Below, piece after piece: positions 27,166-39,253 of a stretch of DNA of 64,000 bases. The DNA is from Cliona cf. orientalis (Eukaryota; Porifera; Demospongiae; Clionaida; Clionaidae). Position 1 is the stretch's first letter, and every line of letters starts with the position of its first letter. Both the position numbers and the translations under genes were made by a program. Where the stretch lies: assembly GCA_963930775.1 (NCBI GenBank), contig OZ005689.1, forward strand, positions 22,690,058 through 22,754,057, given 5' to 3'. The notes beneath the pieces are model-generated. The model searched no databases, was not told the DNA's origin, and saw only the letters and a program-made list of their open reading frames with translations.

Positions 27166-29810
27166 TCATAAACAGTCTGTTGCAGCATCTCCATTGTGGC
27201 ACAACCACACCCCACACTCGCGGCAGTGCCAAGTGGTTTCAGCTCGAACCTTGGAGGCAGAGTGGAGTGCACACTTTCTCCTCTGATGCCTGTGAGGGTT
27301 GTTCTCGTCATGTTGCCTGATAAGGAAGTGACGGTAGGGCAGAGAGCAGATGATGCCACCACGGCCTCACCTACGGCGACTGGAGTGGTCCCCAATCAGC
27401 TCCTTGGCCAGCTGGATCCTAAAGGACTTGATATTGGCGAACGTGCTTGAACTGCTATAGTGCTTCATGAAGATAAAAGCATTTGTTATTGCCACATCTA
27501 GCAGGAAATACTTATAGAACTTTCTGCTCTTTGTCCTGCAGCTGTAGTATCCTCTCAGCTGATCACCACGGTCTACTCCTCCCATATACTTGTTGTAGGA
27601 GATGATACTCTCGGGGCAAGGGACAGGGATCCGTGTTCCATCTAGCTGCCGCCTGAGGACATGTCCAGCATCATTGGGTTGACGGTTGGTCGACATCAAC
27701 ATCACTATCTCCGGTCCATCCAGGCGCTGGCGGACAACTTTCCCTTTGGGACGGTGAGTGATTCGCCCCTAAGAAATTATTCAATATCATGTACACACAA
27801 TATTTGGGCGTGTAAGTTTATGTGGTGCATGTGCAAGTATGTACTCACAAAAACCCACTGTATTATGTATTTCAGCAGTGTATAGTGTGTGTGTGTGCGC
27901 TTGTATATACACACAAGGGGTGTGCGCACTTCCATGGGTATGTCCATTTATGTAAGTATTCGTACTCAAATGACCTTAACGCTCGGCGCATGTGCACTCA
28001 CACGTGTGTACGTATCCAACGAATCCATGTGTGAGTGATACGAATGTTGAGTACAAACATTTGCACACATGAACACACCCATCCCGTGTATATATATGTA
28101 TGTATCGAGTATGGTATGAGTGTGTACACACAATACATGTACCTACATGATCAAATGACCTCACACTCACATGCACATAATAGTTATCTGCCAGTAATTG
28201 GGGTGCATGAGATGCAGGGTCGAATGTTACTGGCCGATAACTATTTTGTTGGTAGTTGACCTCTGTTGATCATTGGCCTACTTTATGATGACCCAACCCC
28301 TTCCCATAGCCGGCAAATTGCCTATAAAAACTTTGGTTGCTAAGCAACTACCAACAAACACACATACACATACACATACACATACACATACATACATACA
28401 TATACACACACACACACACACACATACATATAGTGTGTGCATATGTACGCATCCATGTGTGAAGTATGCGATCGATTTTGAGTAGGAACATTTGCACACC
28501 AAAACACTGCCTGTATATATGCACTTACGTTTTGTGTATGTGTATGTATGTATGTATGTATGGTAGTGATATACACCAGTGTGTGTACACACAATAATGC
28601 ACTACATGTACGTGTACATGCATGTCATATTGTATAGCCACTTACCCACCTATCATACATACATACATACATACAATGTCATGTATCATCATGCATACCT
28701 TTTCTTCAATTTCACTTCTTTTAGGGCTGGTGGAAACCCTTTGCGGTCCTTTCTGGCAGTACCACATGCAAGGATACCATCGTCAAGGAGATCCTGAAGC
28801 AGCTGCTCACTCGTAAAAAAGTTGTCAAAAAAGACATGGTGGTTCTTTCCTTTGAGTAGTCGAGTGAGATCTTTTACAACCCTCTGCCCAAGCTGCTTTT
28901 CTCCACTCTCCTCCTTTCCAGTATACACTTGAAAGGTGTGAAAATAGCCATTGTGGCTGTCTCCAAGCACCCACACCTTTATCCCTCGCTTGATAGGTTT
29001 CATAGGCATGTATTGTTTCACTGCAGATCTACCAGTAAACTTTATCATTGCCTCATCAACTGCTACCTCTCTCTTTGGCTCGTAGAGATCAGCGAACTGC
29101 TTGGACAGGTTATCTATCATCACTGACCGCACCTTACCTAGCCGATCATATCCGGTGATCCCTTCGGCAAAAGAGTGCTGTTGTCAGCGAAATGAAGGTA
29201 GCGAGAAATCTCGTTCTCTGGAAATTTTGTCAGCTATGGGGGGATAACGGAGGGTGCGATCAGAGTTCCAGTAGTCATCCAAAGCAGGAAGCCGGTTGAT
29301 CCCTATGAGGATGCAGAATCCCAAGTAAGCCTTGAGCTCATCTGATGTTACCTCGTCCCAATCAGTGTACTTTTCATCTCGCATGACCTGTTTAGCGTAC
29401 AGGTTAGTCTGTTCGACGATGGTGTCCGTGAGAGATGGGGTAAACATGAGCTCAAAGACTTCGGAGGGTGACTCTGGGACTGCAACTGTGGGGCCAACAG
29501 GAGACGTAAAGTCGCTGATGGAAACTGAGCTCAGTACGGATGACCATTGAGTGGGAGGGGTTGAGGGGGGAGATGCGGAGCATGACGAAGAGGGTAAGGA
29601 GGCTCCAGAACTGCCTTGCTGAGGTTGAATGCTGGTAAGTAAATTGGTATTGTTGTCATTGTCATCATTTTCATTCTCATCTAGGTCACAGTCATTAAAT
29701 TCATCATCACTCCCAGCCATCATCGGTTCATCCAGTTCATCAAAATCATCCCCACGCTCAAGCTCCTCCAAGACATCTTCTGCAGTCAGAAGCCTCACCC
29801 TCTCTGCCAT
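27166..29810 (-). pseudogene. piggyBac transposase 1, damaged
   Basis: It starts at 29810 (MAERVRLLTAEDVLEELE) with an acidic N-terminus. The frame breaks near 29190 (after RERDFSLPSFR) and resumes at 29132. Catalytic acids are present: VAVDEAMIKFTG, HVFFDNFFTS and YMGGVDRGDQ. The 5' coding part ends at 28699 (LKKR, donor GTATGC). A 0.9-kb microsatellite-rich intron runs to the acceptor at about 27772, followed by GRITHRPKGKVV. An in-frame TGA at 27367-27369 follows RRR; beyond it the same frame encodes the C-terminal Cys/His domain (KCALH, WHCRECGVWLCHNGD) ending at 27166. The TGA fits a CGA-to-TGA change. It cuts and pastes at TTAA when intact. Confidence 0.85.
27800..28690. repeat. Microsatellites and dispersed repeat in the piggyBac intron
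   Basis: CA/TG, ACATAC and CATA runs (for example 28361-28430 and 28655-28675) surround the copy of the dispersed repeat described at 23400. The many short open frames with Val-Cys-Val or Thr-His-Thr patterns are products of these repeats. Confidence 0.75.
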
Positions 29811-30740
29811 TGCTAGCTTTTCTCCTTAGTTTCTAAGTAGTTTATATTGTATGTGTGTGTAATAAAAGCGCTAGCGCTATGTATGTATACCAATATTCAT
29901 ACGCGTTGGCTACCGCTCACCTCAATAATTCAATAAACTTCAACTCAAATTTCCGGGTAAATTTCCTATGGAAGTTGCTGGTCAAGACCACTTGAGAGGG
30001 ACCTTTGGTAAGTGTAGAGTACACAGGAAAACCACAAAGAGCTGTGCTCTACGATCGTCGATAGGAGCCTGCTTCATATATACCACTCGCTATGCAGCTG
30101 ACGCCTTGAGGCGTCTACCGCGCTTAACGGCTTGCTCGCGCATGCATGCTCGCGTATGACGCCTCGAGGCGTCTATCGCGTATAATCGGTTAATTGGTCC
30201 TAGTGGGTGTGGTATGGGCGTGGAATGGGTGTGTTTGGGGCGTGGTCATTGTGCCCTGATATCCACCAAAAAAGTTGGCACCTATGGTAAATGGTGATAA
30301 TTCTTTTGACTACGTACGTGGTAGTCTAATCCCTGAGATGTTGCCATTTGATGGCAGAAATCCCAAATCTATTGTACTCCTAGACAATTGTTCCATCCAC
30401 CACGTTCGTCCAGTAACACATCTATTCAAAGATTCTGGGATACTAACACTATTCATCTCTCCATACAGCCCAAATCTCATGCCCATAGAGACAATCTTCA
30501 GTTACATTAAGTATTATCTTCAAGAGCACGATCAACTGTGGCAAACTATGCTTAACCCAAAAGTACTGGTCCAGGCAGCATTTGATGGTGTTAGCAGTTC
30601 TCATTGCAATGGGTGGATTAACAACTGTGGATACCCTTAGCAATAATAAATCACTAAACAATGATGTATGTATGACTCTATTTACACATTCAATGTTTGT
30701 CATATTATAATATAGTGTATTATAGGCCTATAATCTCGAT

Positions 30741-30999: not shown

Positions 31000-31880
31000 C
31001 GCTTTTTCGGTTGCTGAGAGATAGAATCGTGTTTCCCTAGCTCAACCATGTGAGCCCAAGCTCTCTTGTTCTGGAGAATATGTCACCATATGTCCCATGA
31101 ATCTTCTGGCAGATCTCATCTACCTTGGCTATTTTGGTAACATGGGCATCATATTATCGCAATGGCCCAGCTCTATTGTCTGACCTCGCTATTTATTTTC
31201 TGCAAATAAATTGCAAACGCAAAGTGCTCTGTTCTTCGCTATGGCCTTGCACCACTAGTCTTGCACTTCCGGATCGCTTGGTTTTTGTTCCATAAAAATA
31301 CGCGAGATAGCAATTTCCCGTACAAAACATATGGGCATACTTAGCATACCTTTGACCGCCGTGAATTCCAATACCTGACCTTACGTCCTGTGTGTTGTGA
31401 GAACGTTTTGGAAGGTTTTGCGAGTTGCCTTTAGCGTGGTACCCCAACAAGTGAACACTGTAGTGCTCTACCGAGTGATCATTTGCCAGTATCAAAGAAG
31501 GTATGTCGAGATTTATGTAATATACTACACACATAAAGATTTTGCTGTGAAAACAAATATCAAAACATGTAAATCGTGCTACAACGTTCATCCTAAGTAT
31601 GGATCGACCAGCCCTCTTCTCCATAGTCATGAACTCCCTGACATTGTTCACTATTCTCCTGGCTGTACTCGAAAGGCGCTGTCCCTGTCTCCCCATTTCA
31701 ATCTGTTAACATGAATAAAGATCTCATATAGATCCACAATACAGTAGTGTTGAAATACCAATAAGTTGAATAGCACAGTACACATGATCTCCTTTTGAAT
31801 TTTATTCAAAAACTGCCCGCGCTATACTCGTGCTTGTGCGCCTGGCACGGGCGTTTCATGTACATACAAACCGCCAAATT
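31000..31880 (-). pseudogene. Degenerate segment with a transposase-type HTH fragment
   Basis: On the minus strand 31696-31560 reads MGRQGQRLSSTARRIVNNVR, EFMTMEKRAG and ILRMNVVARFTC. This resembles the N-terminal helix-turn-helix of IS630-type transposases in animals. The frame then runs into sequence without a recognisable domain. The remaining sequence shows nothing I can support. Confidence 0.35.
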
Positions 31881-31883
31881 TAG

Positions 31884-32209
31884 TTTAGTCTCGTCCCCAG
31901 ACCCCACCCCCAAAAGGAGGAAAGGGTCTGGTACACATCGAGCGCTTTTTGGGGCGCACAGGATGCAGCAGGTCATGTGATCGTCATGACAACGCATCGT
32001 ATAGGCATGGCAACGCATCAGCGGCTCTCACGTGCAGCAATAGGCAGCTAGCGCGCGGGGTCACATGATAATCACATGCAAGCCACATGGCGTGAATCTG
32101 ATTGGTGCGACAGAATTCAGACATGCCAAGTCAGCAAGACCCAAAAAGCGCTCGATGTGTACCAGACCCTTTCCTCCTTTTGGGGGTGGGGTCTGGGGAC
32201 GAGACTAAA
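31884..32209. mobile_element. MITE with about 70-bp near-perfect TIRs
   Basis: TTTAGTCTCGTCCCCAGACC at 31884 continues with CCACCCCCAAAAGGAGGAAA, GGGTCTGGTACACATCGAGC and GCTTTTTGGG. The exact inverse occupies 32140-32209. The central 190 bp is unique. TTTAG occurs on both outer flanks, a possible target duplication. Short remnants with related cores lie at 33509 and 40803. Confidence 0.9.
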
Positions 32210-32649
32210 TTTAGTTTTCACCGGAAGCGCGTAATAATTGTTCATAATTAGACAGGAAGTTTCCTTAGCAACCACACATACCACAAGAATCCCCTTATAT
32301 CTATTCCTGGAATTGAGGTATGAGGCTATTTATAGCACCAATATACAGCACGTAGGATGCTGCATGTTGTAGTGCAAGAGCCATGAAATTTGACCGCTCC
32401 AAACGAAAGTTATGGCTACAATTTCTTGGAAGATGCGTTCTGGAAGCGCTTTACTTTCAAGCCTGTTGCTATTACTCTGGAGTTTTCCTGGAGTTCAGTA
32501 CATCAGCAGAGCAACTGGTAGGATGACTCTATCCTGTACAACAGTTGAAGTCTAGCTCCCCCTTTTTTGAGGAGAGTTATGGCAGGTAAAAATTTGTACT
32601 ATCTTGTACCCTACTTGTATTATAGTTGGTCCACTGAATAAGACCAAAG
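32210..32649. other. No gene recognised
   Basis: Unique-looking AT-rich sequence between the MITE and the end of the RAG1-like gene. No convincing open frame. Confidence 0.4.
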
Positions 32650-33508
32650 ACATAGATAAAAGGGCTTTGCTGTACAGTTACTCTTCTATGCTACTCCTAG
32701 AGAGCTTCTTTTTTATTGGAGGTCTAAGAGCAATGTTTTCAGGGGCGATATGGAGGTAGTGTGCCTCCATCAGGTGCTTTAGCCTCTTCAATTTATCTGG
32801 TATGGTGCGGTAGGTGTCCTTCAGAGTGTTGAATTTGGCATGAATTGACTGCTCCTTGTTCATCAAGAAGCCCAAACCCCACTTTACACCTCTGCAGCCA
32901 TGGCACCATGTGGTCTTCTAAAATGTGGAGCTTTGGTGTGACTGTTGCCTGCGGAAACTCTTCTCGGTAATATGCCATGAACTCTTCAACATTTGTGGCT
33001 GTAAAGGTAAGACTAGTCATCTAGGTTTGGGTCTACGATTGTTCCACAGTAACACCTAGTTCTACTATTTCCTCGTCATCCATATAGTTCCTGTTGAAGA
33101 TCATATGGCACTTCCAGAAGAGTCTCAAGCCTTGTGAAATCGAGTGGATATCTGATCAGCCTGAGTGTGAAGTGAGGGATCGAGCTCAAGAGCTGTGGAT
33201 GGAACAGAAGCACAGAGTGTGTCAATATTCTGTTCCTGGTGAGCATTATTTGAGATCAGTGAGTACTGGATGCATTATGAGTGTACATGTATAATACCTT
33301 CAGACATCTGTGTACATGGTTCCCCACAAAGGTTCCGCTGAAGTAGGTGCACTTTTCCACGTTAAATGAAGCCAATGCCTTGTCTAGAGCTCTCACAAAT
33401 GGACCATCACAACGCGAGAACCTTTTATTAATGATCTTGTTCAATTGTGAAATCCTGGACTCCTATAATTATGTATTGTATAAATTTGGTGTAATTGTGT
33501 GAATAGTT

Positions 33509-33570
33509 TCTAGCCTCATCCTCGGGCTCCAACTATTCAACGAAAATGGAGAGCCTGGGGATGAGGTTAC
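33509..33570. repeat. Short imperfect palindrome, probable collapsed MITE
   Basis: TAGCCTCATCCTCGGGCTCC and GGAGAGCCTGGGGATGAGGTTA face each other across about 20 bp. The core (C/T)CCCAGG resembles the TIR of the 31884 MITE. It lies in an intron of the RAG1-like gene. Confidence 0.5.
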
Positions 33571-34153
33571 GATATGATTTATACCATTTCTTCAGCCGCT
33601 TTCTTTTTTGTGTTTATCTCACTGGCTATTTGCTGGAGGAGGGTATTGGTTGTAGGTGTACCAGGAGGGAGAGTTACCAGTGTCAGTGTAAACATCTGCT
33701 CAAGGCAGGAAATCTGTTCATTGACTGTGTCAATGTCGTCTCGTAGGGTAGATTGCTGCTGTAGTGCATCTGCGTACTGGATAAAGCTTGGTCCAGCTGA
33801 GCCTGGTATGGATTGCAGAGCTATTGAAACATCTAGCTCATGGCACGCATCTTCCAAGAGTGTGAACAGCCTGAAGAAGATGCCTAAGCTGATGTGGAGA
33901 CCTGGAGGGCACACCTGAAACATTCATTCATGGTAATACTATACACAGTATTCTATACACAGTATTGTTATGATGCTTATTATAAACCTACTTTTTGTAT
34001 ATCTAGAGCTACATATGGCTTCCTGATGACATTATTGAAGAGCTTTGCCTTCTTGATGTTCCCCCCATCATCTTGAAAGGCCTTCAGGTCCCGCTCAAGA
34101 GTGGCATTCGATCTCAAGCTTATAGTTCCCCGGATACTGGGACTCTTGATTAA

Positions 34154-35151
34154 GGTACCATTAAATTGCGTGGGCGTGAGCGTGAGGATTGGCTAATTCA
34201 ATTAGCGAATCGTGAAGGGGCGTGGCCGAAGAGGCCATACGAGTGCTTTTGGTTGAAGGTGGGCGTGTCCAGAATCGGCCAGGGATGATTTTGCGCGTGT
34301 AATTAGCAACCGGAAGTGGCCCCTGAAGAAAGACCGGTAATGCCCACATCAAAGCAAGATCAAAGCATTCTTTCTTAACTATTAACCGCAACGACTTAAA
34401 AAAAAAAAAGCTAATTAGGCCTAATTAAGCATGTGGGCGTGTTCCTGGCACTGTGTGGAGTGTGTGCGTGTGCGTTAATGCAGGTTTTATTGCTTCTGAT
34501 TGGGCGTGGCTTCACGGGCCAGTGCTTGGATATCGGCGCCTGGGACTTGGCCGCGGCGATAGGTGGGCGTGTCACGGAAGCGGTGGTGACCTTTGAACCC
34601 CGCGAGGAGGCTTTGGGGGCGTGGCAGGAGGTCAAAGGTGAGGCCATGTCAGTTAATGAGGCACTGTACTCGGGTGCGATCGAGGGGACCGTACGGCTGG
34701 ACGGAAGCTGACGATGGTTTGAAGCGGATGTGGTTGCGATGACGTGTTGTTACCCCGCCCACACAGGAAATGAGGTGAGCTCTTGTGTGGGCGGTGTGGC
34801 AGAACGGCCTTGAAGTGTTTGTGTGTGTTTTGGCCTTGAGGAAGCGGTGTGTTTTAATTGGGATTGATTGTGGGCTTCCGGTGGACATCCGGTGGCAAGT
34901 CGGCACTTATTGAGAATGGTGGCCCTTGAGGCACAGGGTGGTGCTGTTTTGGGCGTGGCCTGGCCCCTCCCTTCCGGCTCGTCTTCCGGTCCATTGAGGA
35001 TATTAAATGAACACTTCCGGCTCTAGCAGCCACACCCCTGAGACCTGGGCAATTAAAAGGGCGTGGTTACACAGCATGCACCTCACTTATGACTTTGATG
35101 TGGTTTAGGTGTCATATTCCCCACCTCACACCCACACAATTTAATGGTACC
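34154..35151. mobile_element. GC-rich TTAA element, copy 1 (998 bp)
   Basis: TTAA at 34150-34153 and 35152-35155 flank GGTACCATTAAATTGCG and its inverse TAATGGTACC. The interior is rich in GGGCGTGG/GGGCGTGT boxes (at least eight) and CCGGAAG/CTTCCGG boxes. Copy 2 is at 62225-63231 with high similarity. The TTAA duplication suits piggyBac or Kolobok mobilisation. It sits in an intron of the RAG1-like gene. A 92-codon frame is open in both copies but looks incidental. Confidence 0.8.
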
Positions 35152-37339
35152 TTAACTGGCTAGATGCTATATGGCACCACAGACAGCAGTGACGTCCTAA
35201 CGGTGGTGAAGTATGTTTTAGTTGTGTTGACTATGGTGTGTTTGACTGACTTACCACTAGCTCCTGACAGGCCAAACATTCTGGTCAAGAATTCATAGTC
35301 GCCACAGAAGAATACCTTAATCTTTTTCCCGCTATCAAAAGTATTACAGGTACGTGTAATTTATTACTATTTTAATTTTAACTAATTGTGCAGTGTTGTA
35401 AATTTAGGCCTCTCACTTCCAGGTGTGCTTCTCCAAGTCTCCAATCTCCTTGCCAAACTGGTCCCCAACTACCTTCAGGTTGGTCACTGTGTCTGGAGCT
35501 TCAAAAATACTAAACACACAGGTGCTAGCTGGCGAGTTAGGAGTCTTGGTGTTCACAATCTGGAAGACCATCTTGAACGTGCCACCACCTTTATCCCCCC
35601 CTACCTTCAACCAGATCTCGTCACTGGGGATTCTTCCTTGGTGCCAAAACAGGGTGTTGTTCCTTATTATTAGATATCTCAAATACCCATCTGATACAGG
35701 AAGGGGGTGGGATTCCTACCTCTCATGCTGATCCAGCAATGCTTCAACCTTATCCCACAAGGAAGAAACGTACACATAAGGTGCTGTCCGAACTTCCTCT
35801 CCACCTCCACCTCCTTCCTTCAGAGGAAAAGAAAAAGCACCAACCTCGGCAATAAGGTGGTCCTGCACAAGCTCCTTTGCTCTAGTGCGCATTTTTCCTT
35901 CACTGGCAAAGGATACACCCCATTCACGAAACCACCTATCAGTAATTACAGGTCAGCGCTGACTATAATAATTATTATTATGTGGCATAAAACTTTGTTC
36001 ACCTTCTGACCTCTCGCAGCTTTGTCCATGGGATGCAGAGGTCTGCCTTCAGCGCAAGAATCTGGTTTACTGGCACCTCCACCTTGAACCCACCTTTGTG
36101 CAGCTCACAAAGGATCTGCTCACGTTCCGTAGAAGTACGAGCCTTGATCTCCTCCTGTAGCTGAACAACATCTGCACCCCGACTGGTTAGAGACCTGTGC
36201 TTGCTTAGCTCTACTGTGCGGGTTCTCACGGTCTCCTTGGAAGCAGCACTTGAATCCACTCGGGGCTTTGCAACTCTCATGAAAGTAAGTGGCTATATTA
36301 TTTAGTTTTAGTGAGCTTGTGTATGGTTTATGAAGTTTACAACTGCTTACTTGACCTCCTGTATTCACCTCAAGCACACCATGAGACTCTTGACGACGAA
36401 CTAAAACTAGTCGTCAGCTTCATTTCTTGAGGGGTCAAAGGAGCATCTGGAGACTTGGCAAGAACATCCTCAATGGTGCTAATTTGTGACTGAGAATTGC
36501 TGTGGCCTTCCAGACAATAACTCTCCACATGTTGCTGGTAATTTGCTATTATAGGATGCTTAATGATATAAATGTGCAAATCTGTATGTAGTTGAATATG
36601 CTTATGTATACCTGCTGCTATATGCTGCCTGCACTTCTTACAGGTCACTTGAAGATACCCTAGAACCTTCATTACTACAGGGGAAGGCTGGACCATGGTG
36701 TTGAAATCATGCAAGTGATCACTACCACAACAGGGGCAACAGAATCCTCTCTCCCTCAGACTTGTGCACAGACATCCCACACACACGAGTCGATTGCAGG
36801 TTGCCAACTGGATCAGCCGATCAACAATGGCTGAGCGGAGATGACACATCAAGTCGTCAGTGGACAAAGAGCTGGTGCATGAGTGTATTGCTAGAGAGTT
36901 GAGATTAGCTGGATTGAACAGGCTTGGTGGAGCTATTGCATACAGGTGCGTGATGGCCGAGTGTGTGCTGGTGGTTGATGGACGACCAATCTTTTGCTTT
37001 CTCAGACGCCCACCACTTGATGCTCTCTTGAAGTGATCACACACACTACAACTATGCTCTGTGTGTGCACTCCAAGCAAACAACTGCACAGTGGGAGTAT
37101 ACACTCTATTCTCCTCTTTTGCCTTCTGTGAGCGCACTAGCACATTGTAGCAGCTATGGCAGAACGATGATGGTGGTTGTACATCTGGATTATCCTCCTT
37201 GACTGATAATCCAAAGGTCTTTCTCAGTGCTTCAGACCTCTCTGCACATCTGTAGCTGACTTTAAATCTGGCCAGTGGCTTGGCACAGACCCTGCAGTGC
37301 TTAGTTAGCACCTCCATGTGATAATCATCCATCCTATAT

Positions 37340-37564
37340 TATATATTTAATTGTATTGCATTGAATATTATTGTTTGTTCACTAGGCTTCTGTGCCTAAC
37401 AAAAAAGGGGGAGCTGCATTTTGTTTCCAGGAATGCCAAGGGAAGTTGTTAGTAGTAATTGTAAGCTCTTACTTGAGTTCCAGGAAACTCCCTAGTCTGG
37501 GTTACTGCTGGTACTGGAGTGGTGACTTTGCGGGTGTGCGGCTTCTTCCCACAAGTAGTATGAA
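37340..37564. other. No gene recognised
   Basis: Upstream flank of the RAG1-like gene. AT-rich at 37336-37372, otherwise featureless to me. Confidence 0.4.
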
Positions 37565-37788
37565 TACCGTATTTCTTCTAAAAATTCGGCCCTTCTAATT
37601 ATTCGGCACCCTTTACCGAATGATTGAATATAGTCTCTAATTTTTCGGCAAAGGTCGTCATGTGTATATGCTATAAACGGGAATGGAATGCGCACGCAGA
37701 CGGAATGTTGAATATTAACCTCTAAAAATTCGGCGAAGCTAAAGCAATATTGTTATTTTCATGCCGAATTTTTAGAAGAAATACGGTA
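37565..37788. mobile_element. MITE with 26-bp perfect TIRs
   Basis: TACCGTATTTCTTCTAAAAA (37565) continues TTCGGC; the right end is GCCGAATTTTTAGAAGAAAT followed by ACGGTA (37788). The interior repeats TTCGGC words. It resembles TA-target mariner/pogo-type MITEs. No gene. Confidence 0.9.
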
Positions 37789-38189
37789 GTATGTATGCGC
37801 AATAGGTCTGGACCGCAGCTGCAGCTGCGCAGAAAGTTGCCATGGGCACTATAGTAGGTGGAGTGGTTGCTGGGATACCAGGAACCTATGAATAACCCTC
37901 GAAACTCGCGCTAGTACTAGCGCGAAATTCGAAGCTATATGCATCTTGGTAAGTGTGGTTGCTAAGGATGTTGCTATGTGCGTGACGTATATACGGTACT
38001 GTTCTAATTATCAACTAAATCTGGAGATAAAACGCCCGTGCTGGCGCGCCTGCACGTTTGTAATAGACTTATTGTACCCAAGGGTATGAAAGGTCACAAC
38101 CAAAAAAATGTAATTAAGGTGTACCGGATGTGGCTATACTACTAAGGTTTCTACTAGAGTAGCGAGGTCAATGTGAACAGACAATAGTG
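37789..38189. other. Non-coding stretch with a 16-bp palindrome
   Basis: GCGCTAGTACTAGCGC near 37908-37923 is a perfect palindrome, and CGCAGCTGCAGCTGCG lies near 37821. No coding signal recognised. Confidence 0.5.
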
Positions 38190-38457
38190 ATTGGGGATCT
38201 GGACCGAGAACGCTTAGAATTCTTCTTGGCTTTACCCTTCGAGCTTGACTATAGCACCACAGAGTGACTGATGCTTTCTTCCCCTTGAAACTTGCCAAGA
38301 ATTTCTTTGCATCACTATCAATTCCTTCTTGCCTTTAAGTCCATGGCCAGGCACAATATATCCAAATTCAAGCTGGTCTCTATGAGGTTGTTGAATATGG
38401 CTTACTTCGGTTAGCTTAACCCAAGGAAATCCAAGACGTGCAAGCTACATAACAGAA
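38190..38457 (-). pseudogene. Third copy of the transposon-accessory N-terminal domain
   Basis: On the minus strand LARLGFPWVKLTEV, QLEFGYIVPGHGLKGK and KKASVTLWCYSQARR are read with one stop or shift. GY....G......TLWC is the same pattern as in the first domain of the accessory protein at 3662-4075 (DIGYLHGN...NTTLWCDG). The piece starts at a splice-acceptor-like TATGTAG. It ends abruptly on the LINE, and no SHOCT end is visible nearby. Confidence 0.4.
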
Positions 38458-39253
38458 CATCATCCTTTATACCTCCCCTATCAAATTCTGCCACTGTGGC
38501 TCATACACATATTGAAAAGGCTGAACTTTTAAACTCATTTTTTGCCTCTTGTTTCAATCAATCTCATAGTCCATTGGACATTGCTGACTCCCATGTTATA
38601 CCCCAAGCTGGGGAGCCATGTAGCTCAATACTCTGTGATGAGGGCCTTGTATGTGATCTTCTGGCTTCTCTTAAAGGTGCTCTGAAACGGAAGTCAAACG
38701 CCCCGCTTACATTTTTGAATTCCTGACCCGTTTTTCAAAGCTCAAACCTGATTGGTCAATCCAATGTCATCGCGAAGGCGTGACAAAGCAATATTTTCGC
38801 ACTCGCACCGATTGAGCTGCATGAGAGGTGTGGCGCGCTATACGCGCGAACGATCGATCACGAGGTGAAAGACGGCTCACGATCCTGCTGTAGCCAACGT
38901 CAAGAGGATGAAAGCAGCGAAAAGTAAGCTACATACTAGTAGTATCACTGGAGTGAGTCATGACTGTAGTTTCCTGATTCCAGAGTGAACTTACCTACTG
39001 CATCAACCCTGTCTCCAGAAGTAGCAGCAGAGGGAGGCATTTGCGAATCAGGGGTAGGATATGACAAGCTTGAGCTATGTATAATTTACCTTGTTTGATA
39101 CACAATATTGATTTATTTTAATAGAACCATCTTCATCAGATTATGATGTCAGTGCCATTGCCTCGTCACCATTAGTGGGAACTGCTGGGGACGAGGCCAG
39201 GATTGCTAGTGACCCTCGCACCTCTCTACTGCTCAGAAAGAGGTTTGGCTTAA

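Follow-up and report, generated by a model that had tools for sequence, protein, structure and literature searches.

Chapaev, Transib and RAG1-like systems

How the two halves of RAG1 came together has long been a question, and the systems that bear on it include the Chapaev transposons (Kapitonov and Jurka 2007, cited in PMC4411706 and PMC4079192). The hallmarks of Chapaev are 3–4 bp target site duplications, CAC/GTG ends, and the C(2)C, LH and H(4)H motifs (PMC4079192). PMC4411706 describes a Chapa domain, which in two Chapaev subgroups is followed by a RING; its conclusion is that Chapa and RING were fused to the core in the common ancestor of Chapaev, Transib and RAG1. Chapaev itself is a distant relative of Transib and RAG1 (PMC4411706, PMC12730594, PMC3985635); C(2)C and H(3-4)H motifs are common to the CMCT clade and RAG1 (PMC12730594), and DUF1280 is equated with Chapaev transposases and placed with RAG1 in one small clade (PMC3985635). 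An alternative model joins N-RAG-TP (Panchin and Moroz 2008) to Transib (PMC8355894). RAGL elements are reported from cnidarians (PMC7204232, PMC9435367) and beyond (PMC9435367). PMC4411706 contains neither the word sponge nor Amphimedon, and the main texts of PMC7204232 and PMC9435367 contain neither sponge nor Porifera. Here we describe an element in 64,000 nucleotides of the sponge Cliona cf. orientalis (contig OZ005689.1, positions 22,690,058 to 22,754,057; this whole stretch is the window). With a probability of roughly 93%, it is a dead Chapaev DNA transposon (CMC/CMCT clade) whose relatives encode a single transposase combining a RAG1-type zinc/RING region with a core of predicted RAG fold.

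The element shows all the Chapaev hallmarks of PMC4079192, with a DUF1280 core, CAC/GTG ends, a duplication within 3–4 bp, and the C(2)C, LH and H(4)H motifs, and shares the Chapa domain and a RING-like region; unlike described Chapaevs, this copy is dead, carries nested inserts and resides in a sponge. RAG1 and RAGL/TransibSU/ProtoRAG are alike in the N-terminal zinc/RING region, the predicted core fold and the order of landmarks, but their core is unmatched by HMMER and the duplication here is 4 bp. Transib (HzTransib) is described without the N-terminal module that is present here (PMC4411706, PMC8355894) and with 5-bp rather than 4-bp duplications (PMC8355894). N-RAG-TP likewise carries a RAG1 N-terminal-like part within a mobile element, but consists of that part only in the description of PMC8355894; it may itself be a Chapaev. 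Chapaev3, a distant Chapaev group with a Chapa domain (PMC4411706), differs in its 3-bp TWA duplication (PMC4079192).

Structure of the element and its broken gene

The element and its ends are as follows.

31846..38040, minus strand: whole Chapaev element, 6195 bp including three presumed inserts; ends CACGGGCG...CGCCCGTG
31842..31845, no strand: left target site duplication CTGG, same letters as 38041-38044
38041..38044, no strand: right target site duplication CTGG, same letters as 31842-31845
31846..31870, plus strand: terminal inverted repeat, left end (CACGGGCGTTT...), degenerate further in
38017..38040, minus strand: terminal inverted repeat, right end

The ends were placed by likeness to copies with mapped ends and by the 4-bp duplication, and CACGGGCG is present at both. 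Ends of other copies were mapped by pairwise homology, where pairs of copies from the same genome stop sharply together; ten other copies were inspected, seven of which had both ends mapped. The 5'-CAC...GTG-3' ends occur in the window element and in 7/7 of these, and a perfect 4-bp duplication in the window element and in 6/7, whereas random pairs of 4-mers drawn in the window were identical in 0.3% of draws. Minus inserts A, B and C (listed below), the element would measure ~4.6 kb against 4.5–5.2 kb in the other mapped copies. The initial annotation, which proposed a full-length RAG1-like transposase at 32678..37332, gave the limits of the gene correctly (end of the stop codon and start codon), but the mobile element is larger, and its duplication is 4 bp instead of the anticipated 5 bp.

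A spliced reading of the minus strand runs from an ATG at 37332 to a stop ending at 32678 through about 11 exons, separated by mostly short introns (all on the minus strand).

36612..37332, minus strand: exon 1, RAG1-type N-terminal zinc domain (Chapa) and RING-like region
36351..36545, minus strand: exon 2, finishes the zinc finger region; frame break near 36400
36013..36284, minus strand: exon 3 (approximate limits), linker and first core helices
35720..35936, minus strand: exon 4 (approximate limits), core
35417..35662, minus strand: exon 5, GGDKGGG with the presumed first catalytic Asp; DUF1280 (PF06918, E=7.7e-14)
35254..35331, minus strand: exon 6, GDYEF (presumed second Asp) and GLSGASG
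33992..35196, minus strand: exon 7, CLWC (CxxC) and the stretch after it; interrupted by insert B
33585..33914, minus strand: exon 8, PPGLHISLG (LH motif)
33298..33460, minus strand: exon 9 (approximate limits), FVGNHVH
33037..33192, minus strand: exon 10 (approximate limits), frame break near 33130
32678..32998, minus strand: exon 11, HILEDH (HxxxxH); GEQGAES region with a frame break; stop

The CRVC...FCHSC...W..H...C.VC cluster and RING-like region of the initial annotation lie in exon 1, and its GGDKGGG and GDYEF...GLSGASG follow in exons 5 and 6, in the order given. These motifs stand far above chance: exons 1 and 2 joined match PF12560 at E=7.6e-9, and the GGDKGGG exon matches PF06918 at the value listed. 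Two further core landmarks, HCCLWC (within about 35196-35152) and HILEDH, had been overlooked. The Chapaev motifs C(2)C, LH and H(4)H are represented by CLWC, PGLHIS and HILEDH in the window and are present in relatives too.

The TTAA insert splits one exon, and the frame is broken in three places (at about 36400 and 33130 and, in exon 11, within the GEQGAES region), so that the window copy cannot encode a whole protein and is a fossil of a dead element. Within the DDE triad, both Asp contexts are in frame, and the Glu motif of the relatives is out of frame here. EQSIHAKFN, the last motif of the initial annotation, does come last in order, but it is not the conserved motif as read: because the frame breaks inside the family's GEQG(A/G)ES(I/M/V)H, the expected catalytic Glu is not in frame, and the Glu of EQS belongs to the other frame.

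The N-terminal module and the core

Sequence similarity supports homology of the N-terminus with the zinc/RING region of RAG1. Both halves lie on the same strand in one predicted gene model, and the module was found near the core, on the same strand, in 18/20 DUF1280 loci of the sponge's own genome (217 Mb; the window's locus counted) and inside the element ends in all 8 of the copies, including the window's, for which both ends were mapped. Single proteins are predicted for the relatives in Ephydatia, Hydra and the echinoderms Antedon and Asterias. This linkage in the genome, together with the single predicted proteins of the relatives, makes a separate N-terminal gene unlikely, and in an animal only distantly related to vertebrates the two halves can share one protein. 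The full-length relative with both halves that had been proposed therefore stands as one gene model, but its core is DUF1280/Chapaev and not RAG1/Transib by sequence.

All 25 scanned relatives are DUF1280, like exon 5 of the window. None of 10 window pieces matched PF12940 (RAG1 core) at E <= 1; among the 47 families matched by the 25 relatives PF12940 was not in the best 25, with no match better than E ~0.1, the families outside the best 25 being single-member matches ranked below the last, at E ~0.1. In a low-threshold alignment of the cores, the GGD stretch pairs with DGMGD, GDYEF with GYDEK, CxxC with CTLC, GLHISLG with ALHCDIG, HxxxxH with HKTLAH, and GGES with GNES. Structure prediction for a relative gave its core the RAG1 fold over the whole length, with RAG1 and next ProtoRAG and Transib as the best fold matches.

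Copies, selection and relatives

Two pairs of copies are close, L023/L024 (97.9% identical) and L021/L022 (95.8%), which places transposition in the evolutionarily recent past. L023 and L024 are each flanked by a perfect 4-bp duplication, different from each other.

The ratio of nonsynonymous to synonymous change (dN/dS) in the N-terminal open frame was 0.18 for L021/L022 (17 synonymous and 11 other changes), 0.27 for both L021/L035 and L022/L035, and 0.35 for L023/L024 (4 and 5 changes). The GGD frame gave 0 for L021/L022 (5 and 0 changes), 0.52 for L023/L024 (2 and 4 changes), 0.16 for L021/L035, 0.14 for L022/L035, 0.36 for L029/L039 and 0.21 for L021/L039; counts are small throughout, frames may include some intron, and synonymous change is saturated in the more distant pairs. 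These values fit a module kept by selection during the element's active period.

The first protein search returned 48 relatives, of which the top seven were from Ephydatia muelleri (three of them assigned by their Em prefix), the others including echinoderms, Hydra and Sycon. A quick tree was built from 51 cores, namely 19/20 own-genome loci (L037 was too short and dropped) and 32 hand-picked from 58 proteins. It clusters by host, with five changes, the minimum possible, needed for all six groups together; own-genome rows require two origins and rows without an organism label three, and long branches were flagged. The module occurs in members of four groups, those of Ephydatia, Hydra, the echinoderms and the own genome. 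The pattern fits long vertical residence of Chapaevs in each lineage and remains compatible with old horizontal transfer; Chapaev3 families are described as transferred repeatedly (PMC4079192).

Alternative explanations

If the element were, as the initial annotation had it, a genuine RAG1-like (RAGL/TransibSU) or Transib element, this would account for the RAG1-type N-terminus of this family, for fold matches led by RAG1 and then ProtoRAG and Transib, and for ends beginning with CAC. This reading is now very improbable, being largely refuted at the superfamily level: by sequence the core aligns better with another DDE superfamily, DUF1280/Chapaev, than with RAG1/Transib, PF12940 is unmatched in the window pieces at E <= 1 and is not among the best 25 of the relatives' 47 families, the duplication is 4 bp rather than the 5 bp of RAGL/Transib, and a HMMER profile of the core searched against PDB recovered no RAG1 or Transib at E <= 10. 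Even less credence attaches to an N-RAG-TP-like N-terminal element lying by chance beside an unrelated DDE transposon, with the halves as separate genes. N-RAG-TP is described as an N-terminal part only (PMC8355894), and no transcript of the window gene was seen; against this stand the linkage of the halves across loci, their position inside the mapped ends, and the single predicted proteins of Ephydatia, Antedon, Asterias and Hydra. That the locus is a domesticated host gene and not a transposon copy is hardly conceivable in view of its two ends and duplication, the insert in an exon and the broken frame, even though the nearest relative of the window copy is 60% identical in the core and no near-identical copy was found.

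Several points also weigh against the assignment to a Chapaev with joined halves and a RAG-fold core. Exon limits and joins were inferred from splice-like sites and homology. The module is lacking at L031 and doubtful at L032, and L036 has its last part only. The duplication of L029 is off by one base (TATG/TACG), and L025, L027 and L028, without two-sided ends, were left out of the counts of ends and duplications. The negative PDB search applies here too, and the fold prediction concerns a relative rather than the window copy; ProtoRAG was not among the best 50 Foldseek matches listed, though its VIA score was 24.1. Full-length profiles (25 Chapaev against 20 of 120 listed RAG1 proteins) aligned over 598 columns with a probability of 99.7, but hhalign of the cores alone gave P=0.0017 and a probability of 16%; the N-terminus thus drives the full-length value, and the link of the core to RAG1 by sequence alone is weak.

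Proposed mechanism

In the single transposase of the relatives, the RAG1-type N-terminal zinc/RING module precedes a DDE core with a predicted RAG fold and the CxxC, LH and HxxxxH motifs. It would most likely bind the CAC-ended inverted repeats, excise the element and reinsert it elsewhere by cut-and-paste with a 4-bp stagger and duplication. Cleavage may be RAG-like with hairpin formation, by analogy with RAG1, Transib and other relatives, and the RING may act as a ubiquitin ligase, as in RAG1. The zinc/RING module of RAG1 functions in dimerization, nuclear import and ubiquitination, and that of the Chapaev transposase may serve any of these.

Presumed inserts and neighbouring remnants

Three inverted-repeat stretches lie within the element.

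31876..32217, no strand: presumed insert A, with 78-bp arms that are 96% complementary and recur on another contig
34150..35155, no strand: insert B, ~1 kb, TTAA ends, 31-bp inverted repeats; interrupts the CxxC exon
37565..37788, no strand: presumed insert C, 26-bp perfect inverted repeats

A and C, in the non-coding ends of the element, are presumed to be short inserts. Insert B has at least 45 further near-full-length copies in the genome at 93–97% identity among the matches listed, a lower bound with 39/3574 candidates scored; the copies are spread over many contigs, some as adjacent pairs, and the family looks young, successful and non-autonomous. PiggyBac-type transposases are TTAA-specific, and a source of this type could have moved insert B. 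A piggyBac-type transposase remnant lies at 28689-29183 on the minus strand (PF13843, E=2.6e-37). The plus strand carries a DDE_3 transposase fragment at 30260-30640 (PF13358, E=2.2e-9), which we take to be Tc1/IS630-like, and an open frame at 38415-38726 that by eye resembles a retrotransposon piece.

Implications for the origin of RAG1

The initial annotation held that the locus bears on whether the halves of RAG1 were together before vertebrates. Joined halves are indeed found here in one gene model, but as new evidence they are weaker than was thought, since the joined architecture of module and core is already published; what is added is the sponge copies and the whole-core fold match, and no priority is claimed. 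Tentatively, and at somewhat less than even odds, the zinc/RING module and a RAG-fold core may have formed a single transposase before the divergence of sponges from other animals; there would then have been no late meeting of N-RAG-TP and Transib, and Transib would have lost its front half. The grouping of Chapaevs by host in the quick tree and the presence of the module in members of four host groups fit long vertical residence.

At least 20 Chapaev cores, 18 with both halves and some near-identical, extend the joined architecture to sponges, and the copies in this genome are material for testing the ancient-fusion model. With the whole-core fold match, the distant link between Chapaev and RAG1, which the cited papers draw from motifs and trees, becomes testable by structure.
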